Shown: positions 3,165 to 64,000 of the stretch, one piece after another
How positions within the stretch are numbered: position 1 is the first letter of the stretch
Layout of the letters: the number at the start of each line of letters is the position of its first letter
Source of the DNA: Rhynchopus sp. YZ270_cl-10
Lineage: Eukaryota > Euglenozoa > Diplonemea > Diplonemida > Diplonemidae
Length of the DNA: 64,000 bases
Assembly: GCA_964035575.1 (NCBI GenBank)
Contig: OZ037862.1
Span: 1 to 64,000, forward strand
Reading direction: 5' to 3'
Notes under the pieces: model-generated
The model's input: only the letters and a program-made list of their open reading frames with translations
What the model was told of the DNA's origin: nothing
The model's database searches: none
Position numbers and translations under genes: made by a program

Positions 3165-4477
3165 AGAGTTAGAGAGTTAGAGGGTGAGAGTGTGTGTGTA
3201 GAAGCGTGTAGAGAATGACAGTTTGCCCCATGTTTATTTTTAACCCTTTTTATTTTGTGTTTTTTGTTCTTTTCATCCTTTGGGGTTTGCCCCCCCTTTC
3301 CCCCCTTTCCGCCCCCCTTCCTATTTGTTAATATTTTTGGTTGGCTGCTGGCTAGGACGGGTCTACCCCAGCGACGGCCCTTACCCCTTGGACGAGGCTC
3401 TGAGGGTAGAGGGCAGTCTCGGAGTAAGACCTGTCTAAGAGCCAGGCCAGTGGCATCAGGAGCCATTGGGCCACTTTTATAGATTGTGCAGTAGAGTAGA
3501 GTTTGTACAGAACTCTTGTCCTTTGAGTTCCTTTTTTCACTCCTTTAGTTTTTCATTTTTACCTTGTGAAGGTCAATTTCAATTTTTCATTTTTCAAAAC
3601 CACCGCAGGTAAGCACGAGATCCACCATTGTTGTTGTTGATTTTGTTGTGCGTTATTGTTGTTTTACCCTTTGGGTGTCAGTCAGTCGGGTCAGGTCACA
3701 CTTACAGAAGTTCTCAAAAATTTTCACCAAAAAGAAAACTACTAAAAAGATTATGGAACTTCCTTTTTATTTGTTTGTGTGTTACAGAGGAAACGGCTCA
3801 CTCAATCCCCTCCTTCTCCTCCCCTCCCCTCCCCAAGACAAAGCAAAATAAAACTACACCGGTAGACAGAGCAACCCTCCCGTCCCATCCCCTCCCCTTT
3901 TCCTTTTGGGAAAAATTGCACTCACATACGACCCTTTTGCTTATTTGCAGGGAAGTGTTGGTTGTAGTTGTCCCACATGCTTTCTATTTTAGTGCCACTA
4001 ACTGTGTTTTCAGGCACTGTCTTGCCAGTACAATAGTAAAGTGCCCTTGTCTGGACATCTAGCTGTTTACATACTCGCTTGACTAGTAAGTACCCCCTCT
4101 GTCACTGGATGTAGATAAAAAAAAGCGAGCCTAGGGCTAAGTTGAACAACACCAAAAAAAAAAAAAAAAAAAAACCAAAAAACGAAAACAAAGAAGGACA
4201 AGACACACTACGCCTTGCGCTTCGCCGGCCTGCACCCTCTACCGTTGCCCAGGGACCGCCCCGTGGAGGCGTACAAGGCTCACAATAAAACAAAGGAAAG
4301 GGGGAGGGAGGGAGGGTAAAAAGAAAGGACAAGTGTGTTGTAATGTGTAAAAAATGGTCCCCTGTAAAAAAATGGTCCCCTGTAAATCTAGGAAGTAGCT
4401 AAAGTCAGACAGACAGAGGGAGAGACAGAGTAGGACATCAATGACTTTCCAGAACCTTTCCCAATACATACCAAGCG
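3165..4477. other. Intergenic / 3-prime flank of the left gene
   Basis: T-rich sequence with no convincing gene. The part at 3345-3500 is GC-richer and can fold (GGCCAGTGGC with nearby complements), as expected of a 3-prime UTR or element tail. An A-run lies near 4153-4173. A hydrophobic-start ORF at 3628-4062 was rejected. Confidence 0.5.
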
Positions 4478-6452
4478 AAGGAGCTAAGGAGCTAAGGAGC
4501 TAAGGAGCTAAGGAGCTAAGGAGCTAAGGAGCTAAGGAGCTAAGGAGCTAAGGAGCTAAGGAGCTAAGGAGCTAAGGAGCTAAGGAGCTAAGGAGCTAAG
4601 GAGCTAAGGAGCTAAGGAGCTAAGGAGCTAAGGAGCTAAGGAGCTAAGGAGCTAAGGAGCTAAGGAGCTAAGGAGCTAAGGAGCTAAGGAGCTAAGGAGC
4701 TAAGGAGCTAAGGAGCTAAGGAGCTAAGGAGCTAAGGAGCTAAGGAGCTAAGGAGCTAAGGAGCTAAGGAGCTAAGGAGCTAAGGAGCTAAGGAGCTAAG
4801 GAGCTAAGGAGCTAAGGAGCTAAGGAGCTAAGGAGCTAAGGAGCTAAGGAGCTAAGGAGCTAAGGAGCTAAGGAGCTAAGGAGCTAAGGAGCTAAGGAGC
4901 TAAGGAGCTAAGGAGCTAAGGAGCTAAGGAGCTAAGGAGCTAAGGAGCTAAGGAGCTAAGGAGCTAAGGAGCTAAGGAGCTAAGGAGCTAAGGAGCTAAG
5001 GAGCTAAGGAGCTAAGGAGCTAAGGAGCTAAGGAGCTAAGGAGCTAAGGAGCTAAGGAGCTAAGGAGCTAAGGAGCTAAGGAGCTAAGGAGCTAAGGAGC
5101 TAAGGAGCTAAGGAGCTAAGGAGCTAAGGAGCTAAGGAGCTAAGGAGCTAAGGAGCTAAGGAGCTAAGGAGCTAAGGAGCTAAGGAGCTAAGGAGCTAAG
5201 GAGCTAAGGAGCTAAGGAGCTAAGGAGCTAAGGAGCTAAGGAGCTAAGGAGCTAAGGAGCTAAGGAGCTAAGGAGCTAAGGAGCTAAGGAGCTAAGGAGC
5301 TAAGGAGCTAAGGAGCTAAGGAGCTAAGGAGCTAAGGAGCTAAGGAGCTAAGGAGCTAAGGAGCTAAGGAGCTAAGGAGCTAAGGAGCTAAGGAGCTAAG
5401 GAGCTAAGGAGCTAAGGAGCTAAGGAGCTAAGGAGCTAAGGAGCTAAGGAGCTAAGGAGCTAAGGAGCTAAGGAGCTAAGGAGCTAAGGAGCTAAGGAGC
5501 TAAGGAGCTAAGGAGCTAAGGAGCTAAGGAGCTAAGGAGCTAAGGAGCTAAGGAGCTAAGGAGCTAAGGAGCTAAGGAGCTAAGGAGCTAAGGAGCTAAG
5601 GAGCTAAGGAGCTAAGGAGCTAAGGAGCTAAGGAGCTAAGGAGCTAAGGAGCTAAGGAGCTAAGGAGCTAAGGAGCTAAGGAGCTAAGGAGCTAAGGAGC
5701 TAAGGAGCTAAGGAGCTAAGGAGCTAAGGAGCTAAGGAGCTAAGGAGCTAAGGAGCTAAGGAGCTAAGGAGCTAAGGAGCTAAGGAGCTAAGGAGCTAAG
5801 GAGCTAAGGAGCTAAGGAGCTAAGGAGCTAAGGAGCTAAGGAGCTAAGGAGCTAAGGAGCTAAGGAGCTAAGGAGCTAAGGAGCTAAGGAGCTAAGGAGC
5901 TAAGGAGCTAAGGAGCTAAGGAGCTAAGGAGCTAAGGAGCTAAGGAGCTAAGGAGCTAAGGAGCTAAGGAGCTAAGGAGCTAAGGAGCTAAGGAGCTAAG
6001 GAGCTAAGGAGCTAAGGAGCTAAGGAGCTAAGGAGCTAAGGAGCTAAGGAGCTAAGGAGCTAAGGAGCTAAGGAGCTAAGGAGCTAAGGAGCTAAGGAGC
6101 TAAGGAGCTAAGGAGCTAAGGAGCTAAGGAGCTAAGGAGCTAAGGAGCTAAGGAGCTAAGGAGCTAAGGAGCTAAGGAGCTAAGGAGCTAAGGAGCTAAG
6201 GAGCTAAGGAGCTAAGGAGCTAAGGAGCTAAGGAGCTAAGGAGCTAAGGAGCTAAGGAGCTAAGGAGCTAAGGAGCTAAGGAGCTAAGGAGCTAAGGAGC
6301 TAAGGAGCTAAGGAGCTAAGGAGCTAAGGAGCTAAGGAGCTAAGGAGCTAAGGAGCTAAGGAGCTAAGGAGCTAAGGAGCTAAGGAGCTAAGGAGCTAAG
6401 GAGCTAAGGAGCTAAGGAGCTAAGGAGCTAAGGAGCTAAGGAGCTAAGGAGC
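4478..6452. repeat. Uninterrupted 8-bp tandem satellite (AAGGAGCT)n
   Basis: 1,975 bp made only of the octamer AAGGAGCT, about 247 copies, with no mismatch that I can see. Because 8 and 3 share no factor, every frame repeats the same eight codons and meets a stop every 24 bases on both strands, so the array cannot be translated. Each unit contains the palindrome AGCT. It is not a known telomere repeat. Such uniformity implies very recent expansion or homogenisation; assembly collapse or extension could also have altered the length. Confidence 0.97.
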
Positions 6453-13443: not shown

Positions 13444-15370
13444 GTCTATACCGTCTATGCGGTGGTCGTGTGTCCCCCAAATGGCTCTTCTTTCATTTTG
13501 CAGATATGAGGGATAGTGTTTTCTGTGATGGGAACAATAAAGAGCTAGAGGGCATCGAGGAGAGGGAGACAGATGTAAAAGGGTGAGGTGGCAGGAGAGC
13601 TTATTCGTGTGAGCATTGCAAAGGCAAATCTCATGAACAAAAAAAATAAACGAGGGGGCCAACAGAAGAGGGAGGAGGGGGAGAAAGCAATACAGTGTTC
13701 CGACACACGTAGGTACTGTTTGTATTTTTTTGGCTTTTCCCAGTACGGCCAATTTGACATGGCGGTGCAAGGGTTTGCTTCAAAAACAAATCGGGGGGTG
13801 GTGGCAAGTAGTGAAAAGACAAAACTACTGTGCAAAGAAAGAAAACATGCCTGTGTGTGGGAAACCGTTTGCTAACGCCCGGCTTTCTCATCATGTTGAG
13901 CGAGGGAAGAAGGGAAAGACGGTAAATGAATGGAGGCGGAAAGTGTAAATAAAGGCATGGTGCAACTAAATGTCTCGAGAAAAAAAACACTACACCAACA
14001 ACAAATTGTTTGAAGAGAAAAAGAAGGGGGCCTTATGTTCGTGAGAACATAAATGCATCCCGTAAAACACATCACACCTTCAGACGTGATTCCTTTTTCT
14101 CTAAATCTTTGGAGCTGATTAGCGTAGACTAATGGCAAACCAAGATTTGAAAAACCTTACTTTTTTTGTGAATCGTTTTGACAAAAAAAAAAAAAAAACG
14201 CACACGTGTGCTACTGTTGGCGACACGTGAGGCGATGCATGCTTCCTCTTCGGCATCAGAGTAGTACGGTGTGTTCCAACTATCTCCTCCACGTAAGAGC
14301 GAAACGTCGATCACAGTGCTAGACCCTTTGAGAGGACAATGGTTGGACCATACTAGGAACTGGGGAAGGGGAGGGAGGGGGAACGGGGTTGGGAAAAGGA
14401 AGAACACTTCTCTCTAGGAAAATGGAAAGTCTTTTTTTCCTGGGAAGGCAGAAAAATTGAAAACAGAGTAGGGGGGGAAATTGGGACACACACAGAACAA
14501 CAAAAGCATTTTTTGTAAGTGTGATGCACAGACGTGCCTGAAAAAATTGAAAGTTGAAAATTACTGTTGCAGAACCTAAAAGCTTCGAGGCGGTTTCCAG
14601 AACAGTGTACGGTACAATTGCACAGTTGCCCTGTCATGCCGCTGTGGAGAGGCACGAGAGGGTTGTTTTGTGTCTAGTTTGTATCATAGTAATTCATGTG
14701 CTCACTTAGCAAACACTCAAAATCAAAAAGGATTTTTGTTTGAGAGGTAAACGGGTCTCACGTGCACAACGACACAAAAGGAAAACTTGTGCATTGAGCA
14801 CTCATGGAATTTATATAAAAAATATGAAGAAAAGGCGGTATTTTGTATGTGGCATGTGCTGCGGCACTTTTTCATACTGAAAAGAATCGTTGCACATAAA
14901 GAGCATCTGTCTCGACTTCGCACGCACAGCGCTTGTTCTTTGTTTGGTGCCAATCGAACACTTGGCTCTGTTACTCACACAAAGGTCACCGAAGGCTGGC
15001 TGTTTGGACATGTAGGTGTCCTCTTTAATACTTTGTTACTTCTTGTTTCGCGATTACAAGCTCGAATTGCATTCCAATTAATGGTTCTCCATACGAATTG
15101 TTGGGCGGGATGGGATGGGAGGGATGGGGAGAAGAACGTCGTGAGCAAAATAAAAATTCTCCTAAACACGAAATTAGCTGGAAAGCCATTTCAGTGAGGA
15201 AGATACCAACCAAAGCAAAGAAAGTGGGATTTTATTTTTATTTTTTATAGCGCGTCTGCAAAGTTTGATACAGAGCAACAATAGGTGAAACGGGCAGCGG
15301 CAGCAACCCTCGTTTCCTCTTTTTTTTCCCCCTATTTATTTTTTTGTTCGAAATTTTGGACGAGGATGAT

Positions 15371-15462
15371 ACGACGGTCTAAACCCAGCTCACGTTCCCT
15401 GTTAGTGGGTAAACTATCCAACCCTTAGACAATTCTGCTTGTCTAGGCTAAGAGAGGAGACC
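15371..15462 (-). rRNA. Isolated fragment of large-subunit (28S) rRNA
   Basis: Read on minus, the segment contains GGGAACGTGAGCTGGG followed by TTTAGACCGTCGT, with ACCCACTAAC and GGGTTGGATAG just before. These are the near-universal eukaryotic 28S words from the 3-prime part of the molecule. Similarity stops exactly after GACCGTCGT, where the gene should continue GAGACAGG. A stem that reads roughly GTGAAGCAGAATTCAC in other eukaryotes here reads AGACAAGCAGAATTGTCT, still fully paired, so it derives from a divergent but functional rRNA. No neighbouring rRNA sequence was found. It could be an rDNA-derived insertion or a stand-alone rRNA piece as in organisms with fragmented LSU rRNA. Confidence 0.75.
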
Positions 15463-35495: not shown

Positions 35496-38400
35496 TTAGT
35501 CGCCGGTCAAGTACGCGCCTATGCTGGCACCCACAGTAGAACCTATTGCAGAACCTGCGGTGGCACCCACGAAGGCACCTGCAGGTGCTGCAGGTCCCGT
35601 AATTACGGCACCTACCGCGCCACCTACTACCGTACCCACAGCTGCCCCAACGGCTGCTGTTGCGTAGGGGACGGTTTCCTTCACGACTGCGATTAATGCA
35701 TTTTCGCCATTTGCAATGCGTGTGTAACATGAGGTGATCGAACAGGCCACACCGGCCACGACGAGAGTTTTGCCAACCAAGTTAACGCCCTTCGCAGCAG
35801 TGCTCAGCACTTTCTCCGTAGTTCGCGTCCGCTTTACGAACCCCGCCACCTTCTCCGTAGAACCTAGGGATTTCGCCTTCTGACCAGCACTCTTGGTCGC
35901 TTTGTCCAGCTCTGCGGTTGTGAAGGATTTGGACTCGACTTTCACATTTTTCTTCCTGAACAGACCCTTCTCAACGTCTACTTGGATCTTCGTGCTTGTG
36001 GGTCTCGCTGTTGCAGATGCTTTCCCCGGTGCGCCAGCATCGTTCCTCACAAGCAGGTCCACCTTTTTGTATTTAGGGTCTTGCAATGCTTTTGCTGCAC
36101 GCCCTGGTCTTGCACTGGTCTTGCACTGAACGTTGTCCACACCTTTCCCATTGAACACCTCCAAATCAACCGTGGGATGCCTCGCGTTGGGGTGCACGCG
36201 AACCTTCACCCCCCGTCTTCCCCAAAGCTGCTCAGCGTGCACTCCCTTCAAGCTTGCGTCCACATTTGCAGTGCCAGCTTGTAGATGCTCGAACAGGAAT
36301 CCACCCTGCTGGCGAAGGCCTAGACCCTTATACTTCCATGCCGCAGAGACCAGATCCCCTCGCATGCGCACATGCTGACCGTATGCGTGCAGTCCCTTCC
36401 CAATCCCATCCGTCCCCTGCAGAATAACGTCTTGCAGAGTTACCTTAAAAAACGGTCCCCGGTCAGCACCAGGGTCACCGATGATGTGGTCATTTGAACC
36501 TGCTGCTGTTGGGTCTGGATCGAAGACAAAGACATTGCTCTGAAACGACTTTTCAGCCAGGAGCTCGTTGATGCGGTCACGTTGCGATGTGGAAAGCTGG
36601 GTATAGGATGCTGGCACTTTGGGTGGGTCCGGCATCATGTCTGTGGTGTACTTCTTGTCGTTCCATTCAAATTCGCTCTCTCCATTTTTCCTTGCGTCAC
36701 GGAAGGCTTCATTGAAGGTCGCCTTGGAAGCTTTCTCCTCTGCCTGCTGCTTCTGTGCCTGCCTCTCTTGTGCCTGCTGCTCCTCTGCCTGCTGCTTCTG
36801 TATTTTCTGTCGCTGAGGGTTGCCCGCAACGTGGAAGCCTTCTGCCAATAGATTCGAGGCAACAACGTTCCTGCATGTTTCTGCAAAGTCCACCTTCCCA
36901 TTTGTTACGAGTGACCCAAGGGTGGTGCCGGTTACTTCCTGCAGAAGCTGCCCTATCTTGCCTATGATGTCCATTTCCACAGACAGCGCCTGACGTGCAC
37001 TACTGGCAAACTCTTGCATCACTTTGGTATCTGCTATTTTCCCTGCGACCGACGACACACAGCCACTCAGAGCCCCGCAGGTCATCGCCGCCCCGAGACC
37101 CTTGTACCACTTGCGGCCATCCATCACGTTCGCTGCCACTGCCCCGGCACCACTGACGGCACCACTGACACAAGCCTTCGTAGCGCACTGCGTTAAAAAG
37201 TTCCCCGCTTGAGCCCCTTGGCTGAGAGGACTAAGCATCTTCCCGCAGCCTGCGGTAACAACGCTCACCACCGCCACCTTCACCAGGCCTTTGAAGTACT
37301 TACCCCACGGCTGCCCTTGGTTCATCATAGAGCTGATGCCGCAAGAAATCAGCGCAGGTCCGATGACAGGGCATATCGGAGTCAAGAAGCCGCCGACGAC
37401 ACCAATGACCGCACCCAGGACAGACTGAAAAAGGCCTCTCTTCTTCTTCTTCCTATTCTGGCGGTCCATCTCATCGTAGGCTGCGTGCACCTCGTTGATA
37501 ACCTTCTGCAACTCTTTGCATTGCTCTGCTTTCTCAGCGTAGAACAGTTTGTCATGATGTGCCTCTGCAACCACTTCCTGCAAAGCAGACACAAATGCGG
37601 GGTCCACGCCTGTCAGATCAATGTTGCCTTCCCGCAGCTGCTGTTCCCACCCCTCTCCCAGCAAAGAGCTCACATCGCCTCCTTTGCCAATGCGCGTCAC
37701 AAACTTCACAAGCTCCTCTTTTTTGAGTGAAGAAGCAATAAACGCGTCATGTGCTTCACGCATTTCGGTGTGAATTGCTTTGAGGTTGCGTTGTGCACGC
37801 GCCTCCACCTGCCTGAGCTCTGACATCATTCGTCTCTGGTCTTTTGCGCAGGACGTGTACATTTCAGCCAAGCCCTGCAGCAGCTCCAACTCCTCTTGTG
37901 CACAGGCCGATCTCGCCTGCAGGTCCCTGTGGCACGCTTGTCCACCTGTCTTCCCACAGAAGTCAACCACACCTTCGATGGCTTTCATGGACCGCTCAGA
38001 CATAAACTCCAGAAAGTACTTCGCCTTCAGCTCGTCCGATGCATGGCCGTCCTCAGCACGGAGGAAGTGTGTTGTGTTGTTGAAGAACTCTGTCCTTGCC
38101 CGCTTCAGTTCTTTTTCAAGGTCAAATGCATTGTCGGTTACTGCTGGACACCCTGCAGCCTCTGCTGCCAGCCTGTCCATGTGGAACTCTATGAGCCGTG
38201 TTGTGTACTCGCCTGATGAGAGGTTACGCTGCACTCTATTCCACGCAGTACCCTTCTCCAAGACTGCTCGTGCGTGAAGCTTCTCCTGTGCCTGGAGAAA
38301 TGCGTCCACCTCAGAAACGTTCTCCGTCAAAAAACCCTCCACGTCAGTGAAGTAAGTTGCGTCCACTTCGCGCACACCACGTTGTGTAAGGTCTTGTGCG

Positions 38401-41400
38401 CGCAGCTTCTTTTGAGCGTCGTCTTTGTACGTGGAAAGAAGTGGTTCGACGATTTTAGACTGAAACCGTGCCATCAGGTCCGCCCTGCTGTGTCCGTTAA
38501 AGATCCTGTCGTGCACCTTGGCGGCTGCTTCTGTCTCATCTGATACAAGATCCTTCCATGTGGCCGACACACGGCCTGCAAGGTCGAACCCAAGTTCGCG
38601 GAAGAACGTCATCCGATTGCTTTCGAAAGTGCGGTGCAGGTCATGCGCGAGTTGGTCCAAGATTGGACGCACAGTCTGTTCGAAGACAGAACCAAGCTTC
38701 AGTGTTGCTGCCATTGGATTGACGCACGACCACGCGGCGATGTCACTCACTCCAGTGTCCAGACTCTGCAGCAGGCATCTGCACTGCTCTGCAACACGCT
38801 GTGGCTTCAGTGCCGCACTCGCACCCACAAGGTCGCTCACAATGGCACTGCCCAAAGCATCTTTGTTTTCGATCATCTCCTCAACGCTTGTCGCAGAGCT
38901 TGCTTGCGCTGCTAAGTGCGCCACCTCACGCAACCAAGCCATCCAGCCACCGCATGCCTCCCCACACCCAGCGGCACTTCGCCTCTGAAGTTGGATGTCG
39001 AAAACGCTTTGCACAAAGCTTCCCTGCGACGCCACGTACTCATGGCCTTCCTTCTGTGCCGAAGGCTTGGCAAGGAATGTGCAATGCAAGTGTGCCCTGG
39101 CATGCTCCTTGAACACATGGTCCATGTGGTCGGAGTCGGTTTCGCAACGCAAAGATGAAGAAAACTCTGCTGACATCTCACACAGCATGCGCTCCTGTTT
39201 ATTGCTGAACTCTGAGGACATGTGTGCCTCCAAGTCACTGCGCTCTGGGTACTTTGTCCTGGTTGTGTTGTATTCACGCGTGTACGTTTCCAATCCGTAA
39301 AACGCAGTGATGTAGTCGGCAACTTTGTTCGCCGCCCTTGGCTCTTCCATCGTGACAGCAGCTTCTGACGGCAGACTGTATGTGTCATCAGGTTCTCCAG
39401 CGGTGCTTTGTGGCACTTCCTCAGACAACACACTCCGCAACAGGTCTTCCCTCCGCAATCTTTCCAACTCCTCACGAAGCAGCACTTGCTCACGTGTCTC
39501 CGTGAGCGTCGGCATAATCAGTATGTGGGTGATCTCGTCCTCCTCAGTGATCTCGTCCTCCTCAGTTAGACCATCGCTTTCGTCCGTCCCCACACATACG
39601 TCTGTTGTCGAGCATTGCGAACCTAAGTCGTCGTGCGCTGCGTTCCTGCATGCCGCCCCTTCTTCCTCGGTGAGGTGTGTAAGATCCTGCAGCACAGAAG
39701 CCTCTCGCAACACTGACCACTGATGCTCCCCCACACAGCGCACAAGCAACTGAAACCGCTCGAATGCGAGTCCTTGTAACTGCGGCTTCACGGCACCACT
39801 CTGGCAAACGCTGCCCGCCCCACGGACGTCAATCAGAACATCAGTGGTCAAAGACAGAAACGTTGTCAACACGCTTTCATGCAACGAGGCCACAGTGGAA
39901 CGCTTTTGCCAAGGCACATCAGACCTGCACTGCACGGCACTGTAGGGAAGCAGCAAGTACACATGTATTTTCCTGTCGTGGCCCAGTCCCCACGCAAGCA
40001 TCACGGACGGGAAGCTTGTGGGGTTCTGTTCTGGTGCATCTGCAGGGAAACAAAGGCCCCGCTTGCCTGCTGCTGCTTGCAACAACTCCACACCACATGC
40101 TCCTCGGCTGTCGCCAGTGTCGACGAAGGCAAGCAAGTCACCTTGCTCAGACGAGTCGCAGTTCGAAACATCATTCACAAACTCGCGCACAGTTCCCTCA
40201 TTAAGACGCAACGTCCCATCTGCAGGGGCCGTAATGAACGGACGGAGCACCAGGCTTCCTTCCGTGTGCTGTGTGCAAGGTGAGGACAAGAGCCCAGTGG
40301 CCACTTCGGGACCGTCTGGAGCTTCTGCTGCGGCAGTAGCACTCTCGAGAAGCGCAACGTTTTCATCTTCCGACACACTCTCGCTTTCTGAGGAAGACAG
40401 CAGTTCACGTGAAGAATCCGAACTCTCGAAGCTGGCGTCACTCACGCATTGTGGGAAGGCTTCCTGAAGTCGCTGTGCCGCCTCCACCATCAGCTGCTGC
40501 ACCACAGCAAAGTCCACGGTCTCCCTTTCGCCAACAGAGTCGCTGCTTTGGGTGAAGCCTTTCAACAAATGCTTCGTGACCTTCATCCACAGTGCTGAGT
40601 GCGCCACATCCTCTGCAGAGGCATCAAGGAAGTCCTCCGCAACCATCTTCCTTTCGTCCAACGTGGAGCGTGCCAGGTGCCGACAGAACACTCCGCTCAC
40701 AGCTTCGCGCACCAGGAAAAGCACGTCGCTGTCATCCTTTACACGCCCACACCCCTCCATCACGGTGTCGAATATCTGCTTCGCCTGCACCAGCACTGCG
40801 TCCCTCTCCGTGTCGCAGGATACACGCTCCCACTCCCGTATCACGAGAGGTGCAACGGTGTTCAGAGTGACCAACGTCGCAATTGGGTTCTCTGAAAACT
40901 CGACGGGCAAGCTGTGCGTCACGTACACCCCGTCCACAGCAAAGGCAACCGGTATCAACGCGTTCGCACAGTCTCTTGCACCACACTGCTTGATGTATTG
41001 CGCACGCGCAGTGTTGCCTTCGCTACTGCGCTGTGCCTCTTGCACGGAGAGGCTGAACCTCCCGCCTGGCAGTGAAGAGCCACCACTTTGTGCCAAGTCT
41101 GCAGGGTTCAAAACAAGGTCGTACACAAGAGAACTGTCCAACTCGGTCTCAGCATCGCTGTCCTCCAAGATCTCAACCCTCTGCGAAAGCTCCGCCACAA
41201 GCCCGTGGTCCTCTGTGATGGCAGTGCTTTCACGCCCACAAATGCTTCGCACACGAGACAACCTCTTGCGGCCACGTGAAGACGCAGTGACAGCGAGCAC
41301 ACGCACGATTCTCCCGTCAAGCAAGCAAACGCTGTCTGTACGCGGGTTTAGCTGTGAGATCGGAACGTCTGCCTCGGTGCGTGACAATAACTTCCTTGCA

Positions 41401-44400
41401 GTACAGAATTCGGTCCTGAGGATCGATATCAAGACTGCTCCGTCAAAGCAAAGAAGTCCCCACCCCCAGCATTTCCTTTTTTTAATGACGGGTGCGCGTG
41501 CTGCAAGCCTTTGAGTTTCGGCCCTCAGCCTTGCCATCTCCTGCTCGCTTTGTTTTCTGTGTTGCTCCTGTTCCCTCTGCATTTTTTGCATTGCTTCAAT
41601 GCTTTTTTTCTCTGCAAGCTCTCTTTCCTTTGCCATAGCTGCTTGTTTCTCTGCGGCTCTTTTTTCAGCTTTTTCATAATTAGCCTGCATTACTGCCCTT
41701 TCTTTGCTGCTCTTGTCTTTCGCTTGAGCCATCTCCTGCTTCGCCTTCTCGACCTCTGCCTGTGTTTTTCTGCGCTCGTTCTCCTCTATCTGCCGAAGGT
41801 ACCAGGCTTTTCGGAGGGATTGGTTACTACTTTTCAACTGGGCGCGCACTGCCTCCACGTTTGCCTCGCTGTGCTGCAGCCAGGCTTTGTCGATGATAGA
41901 CACATCCGCACATCGCACAGGAAGCACCTCTTCACGCAGCTTCCTTTCTAGAGTCTGCACGTCCTTCAGAAAGAGCTTCACACGAGGGCAGTCTCCTGTG
42001 TCGTTCATGGCAGCCTTCACGTCGACGGCAGGGTCGCAGACGTTCACCACCGGATCCAGCTCCCGACTCTGTGGGCCTTCACGTCCTCCGGCGAAGGTGT
42101 ACCGTCCGGACAACAACGGGTCCTGGATGTCACGTTTCCAGTGCTGCGCTATTTCATCCTGAGCCCACTTAAGGCCCCTCTCTGTGTTCAATCTGCAGCT
42201 GTTAGCGTATTTGCTGTCACATTCACTGATCATCTCGTTCTTCACATCTTCAAAGTTTGCTCTCCCAGCAGGGGTGTTCAGCTGCCACACCCCATTGCTG
42301 AAGTCGTCCAGCACCTTTTGCCTCGCATCCTGGTAAACCTTCTCGAACTGTGCAGCAGGCATGGGAAAGCCCGACACCCCTTCACCTTCAATACGCCCTT
42401 CGCTGTAATCCTCTAAGGCAGTGTCCAAGGCGTCCAGCAGCAGCGCCCGTTTCCTCTGAAGATTGTTGCGATGTATCATCTCAGCTGCACCTCCGATCTC
42501 TGGAATGATGTCTGTGCCTGCGGTGTTGAGCTGCGACACTACCGACGAAAGGAAATCTATCAGTTGCGCCCCAGTGCAGATGTCGCTGCCGAGGAACTGC
42601 ATGCGGGCACTGTCCTTGGAAAGCTTCGAGGTAAGTTCACGCTGCAGGCGCTTGAAGGGCGATATGAACGAAGGGTCGAAGTCCGTGAAGGGGAGCGTCT
42701 TCATCACCTCGCAGCTCTGTACCTCTGAGTGAGGCTTGTTCATCAGGAACAGCGATACATCCCTGTTCTCGAAGCCCTCTGCAGCTGTGTCAGCAGCGCC
42801 GTCGGTTTCAGACAACACAGAAGCCTTCTCCCCCAGAAATGCCTCGCGCAGAATGTCCGTCCTGTACGACTCGTCTGCATCGAGGTACGCAGAATTGTAA
42901 TCACGGGAAATCAGAATCAGACTCTTGTCACACGCCACGTCGTCACAGCGACGAGAGGGGTCCTCATCCTCCTGTGCTTTGTTGATCGCCTTCTTCAGAC
43001 CGTTGCCGATGTCAAGCAACAGCTTCATTGAGTTCATGCCACTCTTCTCCGTAACAGGACCCTTCTTGTTGTACATAAACACAGATGCACAGGCGAACAC
43101 AGCAGAGAACAGTCGAGCGTCTGCACCAGATTGATCATCTCTCGGCGCAGTGTCCCCCACAGGGAGTGCGGACTGAGCCTTCTCGCAGGACTCAGTGCCC
43201 TCGCAGTCGACGAGCAGCAGCCACCCGTTGTTGTTTGGGTTGGGAATGGCCACGACCCACGCACCCTTGGTGAAGGAGGACACCTGCGACGATATGTTGA
43301 AGCCACCTGTTTCCTGCCACGACTGCGGCAGCAGCTCCTTCCCCACAAGCTTCTCCACAAGCAGTCTCAGGCAAAAGGACTTTCCCTGGCGCACAGGGCC
43401 GGTTATCGCCGCAGTGGCGATGGGTCCTGGTCTCTGGTGCAGATCCTCCTCCAGAAGGGAAAGCTCGTTCCCACTGTCGCCTTCGACAACTTCCCTCGGC
43501 CCTGTGTTCTCGCTCAGAGTTTCGTTCTGCCCGACGTTCTGCCGAAACCACTCAGCAGTGTCGCTGTGAACACGGTACCTGCGATGCGGTGGTTCACTTT
43601 TGCGGGATTGCTTCTCACCCTTTGACTTTGGCTCTGGACGCGATGTCTTCTGTGTTTTGGACGAGGGCAGCCCCTTTGTGCAGTCGCCCTTGGACGCGCC
43701 TGAAGTGGGTAGCTGTGTGTTGTATGGGTTACTGTAACTGTCACTGTCGCTGGCGTTGGCCTCGTACGCCCGGAGGTACTTTACAGCAAGATCACGACGT
43801 CCGTCGTAGATGTCGAGCGCAAACCGCACGTCGTCCAGCGGCAAGTGGGGGAACAGCTCTGCATGCAACGACTGCACAACCTCGCCCTCCTTCTGCTGCT
43901 GCTCCTGTGCAGACAGCTCCAACACACGTTGGAATGCAGATAGCTCCAACCCATGCTGGAGCGCAGATGTCTCCATCGTGGGTTGGAGGGCAGACAGCTC
44001 CAATGCGCGTTGTAAACGCAGCTCGTTGTCAGCTGCATCTTTCGGCTGTCTACAGAACGGGCCTTGCCGTGCGAGTGATTCTCCTGCAGGGACACTTGTT
44101 GCAACCGACGGCTGCGCCGTGCTGGCCTGTGTGGCTACCCGGACAGACAGCCCCAATGCGCGTTGGAAATGCAGCTCCTCATCAGCTGCATCCTTCGGCT
44201 GTCTACAGAACGGGCCTTGCCATTCCAGTGATTTTTCTGAGCTTGGTGCCGCAGGGGCACGTGTTGCAACCGACGGCTGCGCCGTGCTGGCCTGTGTGGC
44301 TACCCGGACAGACAGCTCCAATGCGCGTTGGAAATGCAGCTCCTCATCAGCTGCATCTTTCGGCTGTCTACAGAACGGGCCTTGCCGTGCGAGTGATTCT

Positions 44401-47400
44401 TCTGCAGGGACACTTGTTGCAACCGTCTGCGCCGTGCTGGCCTGTGTGGCGACCCGGGCAGAAGACACACAGTCTCCACTCACCAACGGCGACTCCTCCT
44501 TGGTGACGGACGTCTCAACAGCGTCGACAATGGGTGCAGGTAGGCGCTGGCTGCTTTGTGCGCTATCCAGCTGGCTTGATGTCTGTGATAAAGTGTAGTT
44601 GTTGAAAGTTAGGGGTGCACATTTTTAAAATTGTTCCGGGTCCTGCGTGCGGACAGATTTTTGACAACCTGGGGGGGAAACTAGTTTTCACTTGAGGTTG
44701 CTTTCCCCCTATGAAGGAGGGTGACCCCGTTTCAACTCAACAAAGACTGCAATCAACAACGAGCAAGAGTTTTCAGGGGGTATGAAAAAGACAATAATGA
44801 CAAGTAAACCTCCTGTCTGTACTTTCAATTTTTGTGTCTGCGGCGCCATTTTTCGTTTTTTCGGCCCGCAAAAAGAGGTTGGTTGAGTGATTTGGTAGTG
44901 GTGTAAACGCTAGATTAGGTGGAGGGGAGGGTGGGACGTACCTCGTTCTCGTTCTCGTTCATGTCCGTCAATTCCAAGAGGTTTTCGCACTCCTCCGCAG
45001 ACCGCTGAAGAGAGTGCTTCTCATCCTCAGGCACGATCAGCTGCATTGCCTGCGACACCTGACGCCCGTGCTTGTAGCGAAACTGTGCACGCTCCATTAG
45101 TGCATTTTGAAGAAGCTTCAGTGTTTCGCGGACATCGTGCGACACGTGAGTGGAAGTCGGACTCAGACTTTCGAGTAGCGGATGAGTCTGTGGGTAAACG
45201 TTTTCCCAAACGAGTTCCAAGTACTTCCCAGCACTGCTGTCACACGAGCTCTGCACGACCTTCTGGGGAAGCAGCCCGCTGAAGAGTGGGTACGTCATCA
45301 CCAACGCAAGCCCGCACGACAGGTAGCGCGCAACAGTCACATTTACCAGCTGATCTAAATTTTGTTTGTCTTGCCAGCTATCCACAATCTGCTGCGGAAA
45401 GGCTTCAGAACCATCTTCCCGCATGTCCTGCTTGAGTGCCGCAAACAAGAACGTTGCCTTGACGTCACTGCAACCCGCCAGTGCCCAGCGTTTGCTCTCC
45501 AAATCCTGCGTGTACATTCCAATGGCAAAGTCTGGGTGCCTGTCCCGCTGCAATGTGTCAACGTCCCGTACATACTTGAGGTACTCCTCCTTGGCGTGAG
45601 TGATATCCTGCTTGATGCCTGCCTCCGTGGGTTTGATTGTGTCTGCCTCGAAGGCGTCCACTGCTTCGCCGACGATGGCTGCAGATACCCTGTACTGGAG
45701 GAGCCAACGAACCCTGGTCTCCCACAGCTTCACACGGTCCTGAAACCGCACAACACCGCTGAAGTCCTCAGTGCCGATCTCATCCTCGTTGCAGAATTGC
45801 CACAACCGACTGACGTTTGTTACGTACGCGTCAAACCTGTCTTTCAAGACGTCCTTCGCCAAGCTGCGTGCCTTGTCCTCGTTGTCTCGGCGCAGTGCGG
45901 CGTACTCCAGCTCGAAGCCCTCCTCCACCAGGAACTTCGCCTCCCCTTTCTTCATCAGTTGTGTCCCTTCTGCACCAGGAATAACAAAGTCCACCACACG
46001 CTCGGGGTCTGTAGCTGGAAGGTGGAACCGCTTCCTCGCAGCATCAAGGAGTGCTTCGTAGCGTCTGCGGAGCTCTTCCTCGGGCACAGGGTACATCGCG
46101 AAGTCTTCGATGCAAACAGATTCAATGCGAATCTCACCAGGCTTCTCTTCATCCAAACGCACGTACTTGTCTTTGGTAAAGCTGTAGTCACTCAGGAAGT
46201 CCAATCGGCTCACATCACGTAGCGCGTGGTCCTCCAGGTTGTTCGATGACCTGTCCAAAGACGTCGCAGCTCTGCTTTCTGCGGCGAAGTTATCGGTTCC
46301 TCGCTCCCACACACTCCCACGACCGCTGTCGCTTTTGGCCCAGCCGCTTCTGCTGATGACGGGGAATTGGTCAGGCGCACTCTGCAACCTGCTGATGAAG
46401 TCGTGCCGGAACCCTTGCAGCAGACGGCTCGCACCGTTCTTCATTTTTTGGTCCTGCAGCGAAGCGTTGATGGAGGGCAAGTAGATGCCTTCCTTGTCCA
46501 CTGCCTTTGTCACATCATAAACATGTCTGACGAGGTCTGTTCCACTGAAGATCACTTTGCCTTGCAAGTCACGCAACGGCGCACCCATGTTCAGGTCTGT
46601 TTCAGGTGCATCGTCATATAACCTCTCTGCACAACCGTCGTGCGAAGAGTTCTTCGATCGCAATCCAAGTGCACACTTTGACACATTCTCAAAGAACCGC
46701 CATACAGGGGCACGGTACTCTTTGTTAAGAGCGTGCCACGGTTTTAGTGAAACTTGTCTCAGTGCTGGAACACCACCCAGGTGCAGGTGGACGTTCTTGT
46801 TCGCAGGGTAGAACTCAGACGTGTTGTGTCCGTTCAAATCCTTGAAGCAGCCAGACTCGGTGAAGATGCTCTGCAAGATTTCCTTTTGCTTGGCGACAGA
46901 GAAGTCACGGTCCGCCTGAGCGGAGTCCTTTACCATCAGAAGCAGGTTGCGCCTTTGTGTCTGGTTCGGTGACGCCATTGCAGTCTGCTGCAGCTTCGCC
47001 TCTGCGTCGATCGCTATCTGCAAGTACTGCGTCATCTTCTGCACAGCATCCGTGTCGTCCAGCTTTGTCCCACGGTAGATCAGACTCTGGCACAGCATGT
47101 AGGTGAGCGTCACAATTAAGCTGTCGTGGGTGTCGTTCCTTAAAGTTGATCCCGTGCCCTCGCTGTCAGCGAACAGCACAGTCCCAACACCGGATGGATG
47201 CGGTGCTGCAATGAACCATGCACCTCGTGTGCAGGACTCATGGTTCCCACTTGTCCGAAAGAAGCTACTCCCCATAGTCGCACCACGGATGCTTCCTACC
47301 AAGGACCGCACCGTGCGGTTCATGAGCTCGCTCTTGCCTGACCGCTGTGACCCAGCAATGACAGTGATGTAAAACGGCCCAGGCAGGGGCTCCAGGAAAG

Positions 47401-48907
47401 CCACCGCGTCTTGAGAGAAAACAAACTTTGTTTTCCCTGCGGAATCTTCCTCACCTTCGTTGTACACCAGATGCTGGGCGTTCGAAGTGTAACTGTTCTC
47501 AGTGTATCGCTTTTGCACACAACCCCAGTACGTGCTGGCATCCGCAGCGCACCTTGGAAATGCTTGCCAAACATGATCCTCACCAGAGAAATGACCCTGT
47601 CTCGCAATCTTCTTCTGCACAAGAGACGCCAAATTCTTCACAATCGTGTCGCAGTTGTTTGGCGCTGAACTGTCGGTGGTGTTCCCCTTCACATTCTCGA
47701 GCATGCTCCTGATTAGATTGATGGTGTCTGTCAGCAGCGTAAACAGCTCTACCTCATCCTGCAAGTTTGTCCTGCTGCTCTCGGAGAGGCTGGAGAACTG
47801 TGAACTGTGCACCGAGAACTCTTTTGGCTTCACTTGACTCCAGAGATTCCGTTCGGCGTCCGATATCTCCAGTTCCCGTTTGTGCAGTTGGCGGTCGACC
47901 CAGTCTTGGAACAGAGGGAAGCTGGCCTTTTTTTTGCGGCAGTGCCTCAGCAGGTAGCTCATGATGGAGCTGAGGGGAGGATGTCCACCGTGTCTTCTTG
48001 CGTTGTGCAGCTCGAGTATGCGCTTGTCATCCTTCTCCGCGTCGGGGGAGGTGCTGCCGTGTGGGGAGGAACGGCGGATGCCCTCTCTCTGGAACGCATC
48101 CAAGGCTTCGTTCAGCACCAAGCCGCTCCACGCAGGCACAGCCATGATGACGTACGCAGTGGTTGTGTGCAGGACAAGCTCTTTGGTGCCGCCGTGCTCC
48201 ACGAACACTCTCCCACCACGCAGCGCGGGTTTGCTGTCCTTCTTCAGGATCTGCAGAAGCTTCACCTCAAACGCGAAGTGGCCTCGGAACCTATCTGCGA
48301 AGACCTCCAGGGCCTCAAGGTCCTTGTCGTTTAGCAGCTTCCTCACCTGGTACGCCTCTGCGTAGTTGTCGGGCTGCAGGTCCTTCTCCGGCACAGTGTA
48401 GGACACATCATTCAACTTCCTCCACAGCACGTCGGACCCCTTGGTGTTCCAGTGTTTATTGTGATCGAATGCAAAGGAAAACCTCCTGTCCCCGTTGTGG
48501 TCAGGTTCTGTTGCAGTTGTGCGGGTGAAGAAGCACATCGCAATGCCAGGATTCGTGCCGTCCTCGCCCGAAAACACGTTGGACAGCTCCCCGTATTCGG
48601 TGAATACTTGATCTTCATGTGGGGGGCGAGCCTCAAGCTCGTCATGCTGTGAAGAGGAGGGTGCGGACGAGCCACTCTGATGCCCTGCCTGTGGCAAAGC
48701 GTTCGAAGCCCCCTGCGCAGACAACTGCTTCTGCAGCTCTGCAATCATGGCATCCCGCTCTGCAGCGGCAGCACGTTCTTGGCGAAGCATGTTCTCTGCA
48801 CGCTCCCTCTCCTCTTTCTCTTTGTGCAGCTGCTCGAGCACATTGCCTTCGTGTACGGCTTCTCTGAACTCCATATCTGCATCAAGCCACTCCGCATCCC
48901 CTGACAT
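35496..48907 (-). CDS. Giant dual-GTPase protein, copy 1, about 4,350 aa
   Basis: Exons 44942-48907 and 35496-44582 joined over a 359-bp phase-0 intron. Start MSGDAEWLDADMEF lies 24 bp after a CCCTCCAG acceptor. Order: coiled coil (about 20-60); G domain 1 with P-loop GSQRSGKS (519-526), DSEG (581-584) and KD (660-661); helical region; ubiquitin-binding cassette (about 1345-1595); G domain 2 with GPVRQGKS (1717-1724), DCEG (1781-1784) and RD (1882-1883). Both have the DxEG and R/K-D motifs and downstream helices of the GBP/GB1-RHD3 family. Then a coiled coil, a Hint-like domain (2367 to about 2450), an acidic Ser-rich part, long helical stretches, a glycine-rich hydrophobic block (near 37030-37440), a QAEEQQAQ coil, a nuclease-like QxK segment (near 36120-36160) and a glycine zipper at the end. 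Probably a membrane-acting immune-type GTPase; function is inference. Confidence 0.85.
41120..41456 (-). other. Hint-like (hedgehog/intein-type) domain inside the giant GTPase
   Basis: CFDGAVLIS starts with Cys2367. ADVPISQLNPRTDSVCLLDG matches the I-x-x-L-x-x-x-D-x-V turn of Hint folds, RIVRVLAV follows, and TAITEDHGLV supplies a TxxH with His2448, 81 residues after the Cys, the usual block A to block B spacing. Later, YDLVLNPADL and VDGVYVTHSLP recall the Vint subtype. Copy 2 keeps Cys, TEDH and nearly all of the rest (about 58830-59160). If active it would cleave or splice the chain ahead of the Cys. Confidence 0.5.
43780..44582 (-). other. UIM-like repeats and CUE-like domain of copy 1
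   Basis: Three tandem units of about 52-55 residues each contain DAADEELHFQRALELS or a close variant (near 44340, 44180 and 44010). The FQRALELS core fits the ubiquitin-interacting motif (hydrophobic-x-x-A-x-x-x-S preceded by acidic residues). Two degenerate copies follow (LQHGLELS, FQRVLELS), then LFPHLPLDDVRFALDIYDGR with DLAVKYLRAYE, a CUE/UBA-like pattern. Together they predict binding of ubiquitin chains. Absent from copy 2. Confidence 0.6.
44583..44941 (-). other. Only visible coding intron of GTPase copy 1
   Basis: Donor GAG|GTACGT and acceptor TATCACAG|ACA, phase 0 on both sides. It separates the G-domain-1 exon from the ubiquitin-binding exon. Reading on past either site meets a stop or leaves the conserved protein, and copy 2 joins the two flanking parts without it, which supports a single gene. 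Confidence 0.8.
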
Positions 48908-63100: not shown

Positions 63101-64000
63101 GCTTCGTCCCACGGTAGATCAGACTCTGGCACAGCATGTAGGTGAGCGTCACAATTAAGCTGTCGTGGGTGTCGTTCTTCAAAGTTGATCCCGTGCCCTC
63201 GCTGTCAGCGAACAGCACAGTCCCAACACCGGATGGATGCGGTGCTGCAATGAACCATGCACCTCGTGTGCAGGACTCATGGTTCCCACTTGTCCGAAAG
63301 AAGCTACTCCCCATAGTCGCACCACGGATGCTTCCTACCAAGGACCGCACCGTGCGGTTCATGAGCTCGCTCTTGCCTGACCGCTGTGACCCAGCAATGA
63401 CAGTGATGTAAAACGGCCCAGGCAGGGGCTCCAGGAAAGCCACCGCGTCTTGAGAGAAAACAAACTTTGTTTTCCCTGCGGAATCTTCCTCACCTTCGTT
63501 GTACACCAGATGCTGGGCGTTCGAAGTGTATCTCTGCTCGGTGTACCGCTCTTGCACACAACCCCAGTACGTGCTGGCATCCGCAGCGCACCTTGGAAAT
63601 GCTTGCCAAACATGATCCTCACCAGAGAAATGACCCTGTCTCGCAATCTTCTTCTGCACAAGAGACGCCAAATTCTGCACAATCGTGTCGCAGTTGTTTG
63701 GCGCTGAACTGTCTGTGGTGTTCCCCTTCACATTCTTGAGCATGCTCCTGATTAGATTGATGGTGTCTGTCAGCAGCGTAAACAGCTCTACCTCATCCTG
63801 CAAGTTTGTCCTGCTGCTCTCGGAGAGGCTGGAGAACTGTGCACTGTGCACCGAGAACTCTTTTGGCTCCACTTGACTCCAGAGATTCCGTCGGCGTCCG
63901 ATATCTCCAGTTCACCCTCGTGCAGTTGGTGGTCGACCCAATCTTTGAATTGCAGAGGGAAGCTGGCCTTGCGGCAGTGCCTCAGCAGGTAGCTCATGAT
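54186..64000 (-). CDS. Giant dual-GTPase protein, copy 2, N-terminus outside window
   Basis: Open from about 63875 to the stop at 54186 (at least 3,228 codons, no intron). It has G domain 1 (GSQRSGKS near 63390, DSEG near 63200), then directly G domain 2 (GPVRQGKS near 61045), the Hint-like part with the same Cys and TEDH, and the C-terminal QxK and glycine-zipper parts. Compared with copy 1 it lacks the ubiquitin-binding cassette and intron (1,406 bp), about 70 residues after G domain 1, about 50 in the late helical region and about 170 in the glycine-rich block, all in frame. Upstream of about 63.89 kb the match to copy 1 continues in another frame because of a one-base length difference, so the 5-prime part may be damaged, or the assembly is wrong there. 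Confidence 0.8.

Follow-up and report, generated by a model that had tools for sequence, protein, structure and literature searches.

The first 64,000 nucleotides of contig OZ037862.1 of Rhynchopus sp. YZ270_cl-10 (hereafter the window) form the first part of contig 30 in a genome of 152 Mb and 126 contigs. On the minus strand they carry a gene for a giant protein with two GBP-type G domains in one chain. This gene, copy 1, is adjoined in the same window by a tandem copy 2, absent from a preliminary description of this DNA, and a copy 3 is located on another contig, contig 80. The best explanation of these sequences is a small, fast-changing, lineage-specific family of giant GBP-type GTPases. 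Copy 1 would encode a membrane-acting GBP-type GTPase, probably in a setting of cell-autonomous defence.

The preliminary description had correctly placed copy 1 at 35496..48907, with a start ATG at 48907 and a stop codon ending at 35496. Joining exon 1 (48907-44942) to exon 2 (44582-35496) yields 4350 residues in phase with zero internal stops, and the intron reads GTACGT...TCACAG (GT-AG). A division of the two exons between different genes, which the preliminary description had named as refuting its reading, is ruled out by copy 3, where both G domains and most of the following part lie in a single uninterrupted frame of 3917 codons. Exons 1 and 2 are therefore one gene, and the giant double-GBP gene is real. 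Splicing within one gene is also backed by the formin gene described below, where an exon likewise ends before a GT, at the corresponding site and in the same phase. The main parts of copy 1, and copy 2, are as follows.

44942..48907, minus strand: exon 1 of copy 1, residues 1-1322, an open frame with a coiled-coil-like start, an N-terminal region of no named type, the first G domain and the region after it
46871..47431, minus strand: first GBP-type G domain, with P-loop GSQRSGKS, DSEG and KD; PF02263
44583..44941, minus strand: intron of copy 1, 359 bases, phase 0; the formin gene has a homologous exon end in the same phase
35496..44582, minus strand: exon 2 of copy 1, residues 1323-4350 and stop, an open frame
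42633..43445, minus strand: second GBP-type G domain, with P-loop GPVRQGKS, DCEG and RD; PF02263
54186..63911, minus strand: tandem copy 2, an open frame with both G domains

The N-terminal part of copy 2 is read in a different frame, which runs from 63791 beyond the end of the window. The one-base frame change (63791-63911) is either a mutation or a sequencing error; copy 3 has an unbroken frame there.

To characterize the G domains, the Pfam family PF02263 was matched to copy 1, giving 46.2 and 37.8 bits (gathering cut-off 21.1). A scan of the whole genome with this family, which may overlook intron-split genes, returned seven matches in four genes, all above the cut-off: copies 1, 2 and 3, with both G domains matched in each of the three giants, and a single-domain gene on contig 23. 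Upon alignment to human GBP1, both G domains of copy 1 keep the counterparts of its catalytic residues: R48, K51 and S52 in the P-loop, S73 and T75 in switch 1, and D97xEG. RD is kept in the second domain of this alignment, and KD of the first was read by eye. A profile of the window's four G domains matched GBP1/2/5 at 2.6e-16 to 8e-14 and atlastin at 5e-4 to 7e-4; judged by profile, the G domains are closer to GBP1/2/5 than to atlastin. Alignment and reading thus confirm the two P-loops, each with DxEG and K/R-D, that the preliminary description had reported, and its proposal of a giant GBP-type GTPase with two such domains in one chain is upheld by family scores, catalytic residues and profile distance. 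The two domains share only ~25 % identity with each other and, therefore, the doubling may be old or may have drawn on two different GBP genes.

The giants share G-domain type and catalytic residues with GBP1/2/5 but differ from them in having two G domains per chain, lengths of 3228 to 4350 residues, no CaaX end and extra regions. The Dictyostelium GBP (Gnbp) is much smaller than the giants here. According to the available part of one report, Gnbp resembles them in its conserved G domain and a predicted C-terminal membrane segment but differs in having one G domain (PMC8565484). Human GVIN1 is described, in the accessible portion of another report, as a giant GTPase that coats bacteria and whose gene has no introns (PMC11974893). 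VLIG/GVIN1 and the proteins studied here have in common their giant size and an N-terminal domain before a large GTPase domain; the same portion, however, names one large GTPase domain in GVIN1 where the giants have two, and copy 1 has one intron (PMC11974893). Among the open-licence papers listed, covered mostly at the level of titles and abstract openings, none names two GBP G domains in one chain. Such an arrangement in cis would test whether GBP assembly requires separate molecules.

When full-length copy 2 was compared by shared words with 5.8 billion proteins, two were returned among 7997 candidates scored, one identical to copy 2 and one of 3915 residues fitting the contig-80 copy in length and identity. 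No relative of the giants outside their own genome was found in this search, which needs shared five-residue words and misses distant relatives. Its reach is limited, since ordinary GBPs were not returned either, and within that reach, with no direct comparison made, other giant GTPases (VLIG/GVIN) gave no match. The single-GBP protein, used as query, likewise returned one protein, identical to it (E 1e-5; 8000 candidates scored).

Copy 1 differs from the other two copies by ~350 extra residues between its G domains, which have no counterpart in copies 2 and 3. The features of this segment are the following.

43602..45007, minus strand: copy-1-only segment (exon end, intron and UIM-CUE exon), defined by copy comparison
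44310..44348, minus strand: UIM 1, placed by its letters, Pfam having located the best stretch only
44145..44183, minus strand: UIM 2, by Pfam and letters
43992..44030, minus strand: UIM 3, the best Pfam stretch
43779..43859, minus strand: CUE-like motif, by Pfam, below the curated cut-off

UIM 1 and UIM 2 sit in a 165-base tandem repeat (44086-44404). When the 248-residue segment was scanned alone, the Pfam UIM model reached 22.9 bits (cut-off 21) over three stretches. Of the ubiquitin-binding modules named in the preliminary description, the UIM part hence stands above its cut-off in the segment alone, and the CUE part stays below. Six blastn pieces between 43621 and 45007, not spanning the full length, match a formin gene on contig 48 (locus L021 3297-5564; FH2 at 180 bits), and at the protein level the agreement is 72 % in a stretch of 100 residues and 64 % in one of 55. 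Among the DNA matches are a 50-base piece close to where exon 1 ends (94 %) and one of 78 bases across the 3' end of the intron (83 %). In the formin, GAG|GT stands where copy 1 has its exon end, and in the same phase; the splice-site alignment misplaced the far side, and the intron bodies align poorly. Because of these DNA matches and the shared GAG|GT, the exon end, the intron and the UIM-CUE exon most likely came from the formin gene as a unit. Since the segment is missing from the other two GBP copies, the direction of capture would be from formin to GBP.

What the two genes share is the UIM-CUE segment with its flanking exon end, in the N-terminal part of the formin; FH1 and FH2 are not common to them, and the FH2 family gave no match in the copy 1 protein (Pfam scan). 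A scan of the formin protein at E 0.1 listed neither UIM nor CUE, and its UIM-CUE part is for this reason named by likeness to copy 1. A formin with an N-terminal part resembling this segment is an unusual pairing in itself. Between the two genes, the ratio of nonsynonymous to synonymous change (dN/dS) in the CUE part is 0.40 over 80 codons, a rough value from 29 differences. UIM-CUE as a shared core of the giant family is ruled out by its absence from copies 2 and 3. Instead, an immunity-type GTPase would here have gained a ubiquitin-reading module by capturing an exon and intron of another gene within one genome.

The C-terminal part of copy 1 contains three further features.

37041..37439, minus strand: first glycine-rich hydrophobic region, residues 3704-3836, by sequence inspection
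36042..36314, minus strand: nuclease-like segment GFLFEHL...VDLEV...VQCKTS, seen in copies 1 and 2 with no match in copy 3
35517..35648, minus strand: C-terminal glycine zipper (GxxxG repeats), by sequence reading

The glycine zipper can be seen directly as GxxxG repeats at residues 4301-4344, in a hydrophobic stretch; copy 2 has the same and copy 3 less. Pfam glycine-zipper models remained below their cut-offs on the copy 1 C-terminus. DUF6861 (19.7 bits vs 28), P22 portal and others, as well as phrog_34863 (E 0.0014), were set aside as glycine-rich or chance matches, as were two NCBIfam models far below cut-off on copy 2 and weak matches of DUF2682, YfbU and HBS1_N on the other genes. The giants end in YLTGD, ALHCR and SRHCR, without CaaX. 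This does not decide against GBP membership, because the available text of one report gives a CaaX end to only 3 of 7 human GBPs (PMC8565484). The single-GBP gene (contig 23, locus L011 3078-5843) is a 922-codon frame ending in CVIA, which is CaaX-like; the tails of copies 1 and 2 are glycine zippers instead, a difference that fits the proposed membrane role for this end of the giants.

To follow how the family changes, the frames of 3228, 3917 and 4350 codons were compared. dN/dS (Nei-Gojobori, aligned codons) is 0.98 for copies 1 and 2, 0.77 for copies 1 and 3 and 0.92 for copies 2 and 3, and substitutions are spread nearly evenly over the three codon positions. The frames hold no stop, compared with means of 17.2, 36.3 and 34.1 and lowest counts of 6, 20 and 19 when equal numbers of substitutions were placed at random (500 runs per pair); copies 1 and 3 are the fair pair for this test, as the frame of copy 2 begins after its frame change. 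Length changes between the frames number 30-54. We read this as a frame kept while the protein changes fast, and the kept frame together with dN/dS of 0.77-0.98 suggests conflict-driven change. Divergence between copies 1 and 2 is patchy, with dS from 0.012 to 0.33 by region, as would be expected from gene conversion between copies. Region-wise dN/dS for this pair runs from 0.30 to 1.55, with an uncertain coiled-coil alignment and no significance values, and we make no claim of positive selection from it.

In the mechanism that we favour, GTP loading would lead to pairing of the two G domains and to assembly into membrane coats. The hydrophobic, glycine-rich C-terminus would take over the part that a prenyl group plays in some ordinary GBPs, anchoring the protein at the membrane or inserting into it. 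UIMs and CUE-like motif may guide the copy 1 protein to ubiquitin-marked targets, e.g., damaged or invading compartments. The setting, a step further, would be cell-autonomous defence, which appears likeliest because of the GBP family, the fast change and the coat formed by human GVIN1. We hold this full reading, a GTP-driven membrane coat with glycine-rich anchor, ubiquitin aiming in copy 1 and a defence role, to be about evenly poised between right and wrong. Several points weigh against it. UIM was not listed at E 0.1 when the whole exon-2 protein was scanned, CUE reached 17.9 bits in the whole protein and 18.8 bits in the segment alone against a cut-off of 21.1, and the UIM-CUE part lies outside the core function, since copies 2 and 3 do without it. 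Defence is argued from family resemblance only. A dN/dS near 1 is also compatible with weak constraint, copy 2 with its frame change near the start may be partly broken, and the frames were chosen for openness, which favoured the stop test. In Aureococcus, as far as the available part of the report goes, several GBP genes were lowered, not raised, after giant-virus infection (PMC5917014), and for the Dictyostelium GBP the accessible text reports presence in the macropinosome proteome and suggests a role in traffic (PMC8565484).

The presumed traffic role of the Dictyostelium protein equally speaks for a GBP-type GTPase with everyday duties at membranes or the cytoskeleton (vesicle traffic, cortex or actin) and not in defence, with the formin piece, common to both genes, reflecting that setting. 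We regard this as somewhat unlikely: the shared piece is the formin N-terminal part only and not FH1/FH2, and fast change with no relatives found elsewhere would be unusual for housekeeping proteins.

That the family is relaxed or dying, its recent copies drifting without a function of their own, would agree with the dN/dS values between the copies, the one frame change in copy 2 and the region-by-region patchiness of divergence. It is nonetheless improbable in our judgement, given long frames with 0 stops where 17-36 are expected, the lower dN/dS of the CUE part and the kept catalytic residues.

Beyond the membrane-coat reading, the preliminary description had named a QxK nuclease-like module. 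The motif letters are there: copies 1 and 2 both retain E (GFLFEHL), D (VDLEV) and QxK (VQCKTS), though at 79 % identity in this segment such conservation says little. No homologue was found in a protein search (8000 candidates scored, none at E 1), on genome contigs (159 pattern matches, 0 confirmed), on viral contigs (197 pattern matches, 0 confirmed) or in plasmids and phages (no match at E 1); Pfam gave no nuclease family, and anti-phage families gave no match at E 0.1. A PDB match to a kinase at E 1.3 was dismissed as unrelated. Copy 3 has a different C-terminal end without a match to the segment. An AlphaFold model of the C-terminus, of very low confidence (mean predicted local distance difference test (pLDDT) 27.8, predicted template modelling score (pTM) 0.17), arranges helix-strand-strand-strand-helix around these residues, with E on a helix and D and QxK on strands. 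PD-(D/E)xK nucleases carry their catalytic residues on elements in the same order (helix, strand, strand). The element order of the model hence fits the nuclease reading and its confidence does not help it; the nuclease is an unproven, motif-level guess. A one-chain defence executor, in which two membrane-coating GBP motors would carry an exchangeable nuclease-like payload with glycine-zipper tail, present in two paralogues and replaced in the third, and a formin-derived ubiquitin-reading module, is in our view quite improbable. More generally, new effector proteins may come about through C-terminus exchange together with module capture.

The preliminary description had also read a Hint-like domain, and from it self-processing, in one segment of exon 2.

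40911..41456, minus strand: segment earlier read as Hint-like, residues 2365-2546, near-identical in the three copies, with no Hint relation found

Bacteria have toxins with HINT and restriction folds, and some such toxin families occur in eukaryotes, according to the available part of one report, which made the Hint and nuclease reading worth testing (PMC3482391). For the 252-residue segment, Pfam listed no family at E 10, a scan in which HMMER filters discard most matches above ~0.1. PT-HINT was found nowhere in the genome, whereas 2 of 14 control genomes gave matches, and a profile comparison with the PDB gave nothing. On a profile of six intein N-terminal parts, whose leave-one-out scores were 92-122 (probability 98.8-99.5 %), the segment as a single-sequence query scored 9.5 (0.07 %), below the median of 60 shuffles (11.1, top 20.0) and also below the top-scoring of 22 windows taken from this protein (13.4); profiles of the Hedgehog, Vint and PT-HINT types lay outside this test. 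The Hint reading is not supported by any of these comparisons, and neither is the self-processing that depended on it; a self-processing toxin is not demonstrated. Likeness to bacterial polymorphic toxins (HINT, Tox-REase) stays at motif level, with no sequence relation to the giants found. Very improbable is a self-processing executor in which cleavage by Hint would release a C-terminal nuclease with glycine-zipper tail: in its favour are C...PISQL..TDSV and TEDH, which resemble Hint motifs and are kept in all three copies, along with the E, D and QxK residues and their modelled arrangement, and against it stand the Hint results just given and a nuclease without homologue, poorly modelled and not found in copy 3.

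Elsewhere in the window, positions 4474-6452 hold a near-perfect array of 247 copies of the octamer AGCTAAGG. Genome-wide, runs of four units number 13511 in forward and 13665 in reverse orientation (control 0), and the octamer is thus an abundant satellite. The window's only Rfam match is a large-subunit rRNA piece at 15305-15461 on the minus strand (63.3 bits, gathering score 50). Matches to 5.8S rRNA in the whole genome lie on many contigs with falling scores (38 listed of 39 scored, from 3857 in a first look), 27 of them above the cut-off, and pieces of rDNA seem to be scattered through the genome. Five tandem 5.8S rRNA copies stand ~6.6 kb apart on contig 111, and the 18S rRNA of that contig (locus L024 700-2560) looks divergent by eye.

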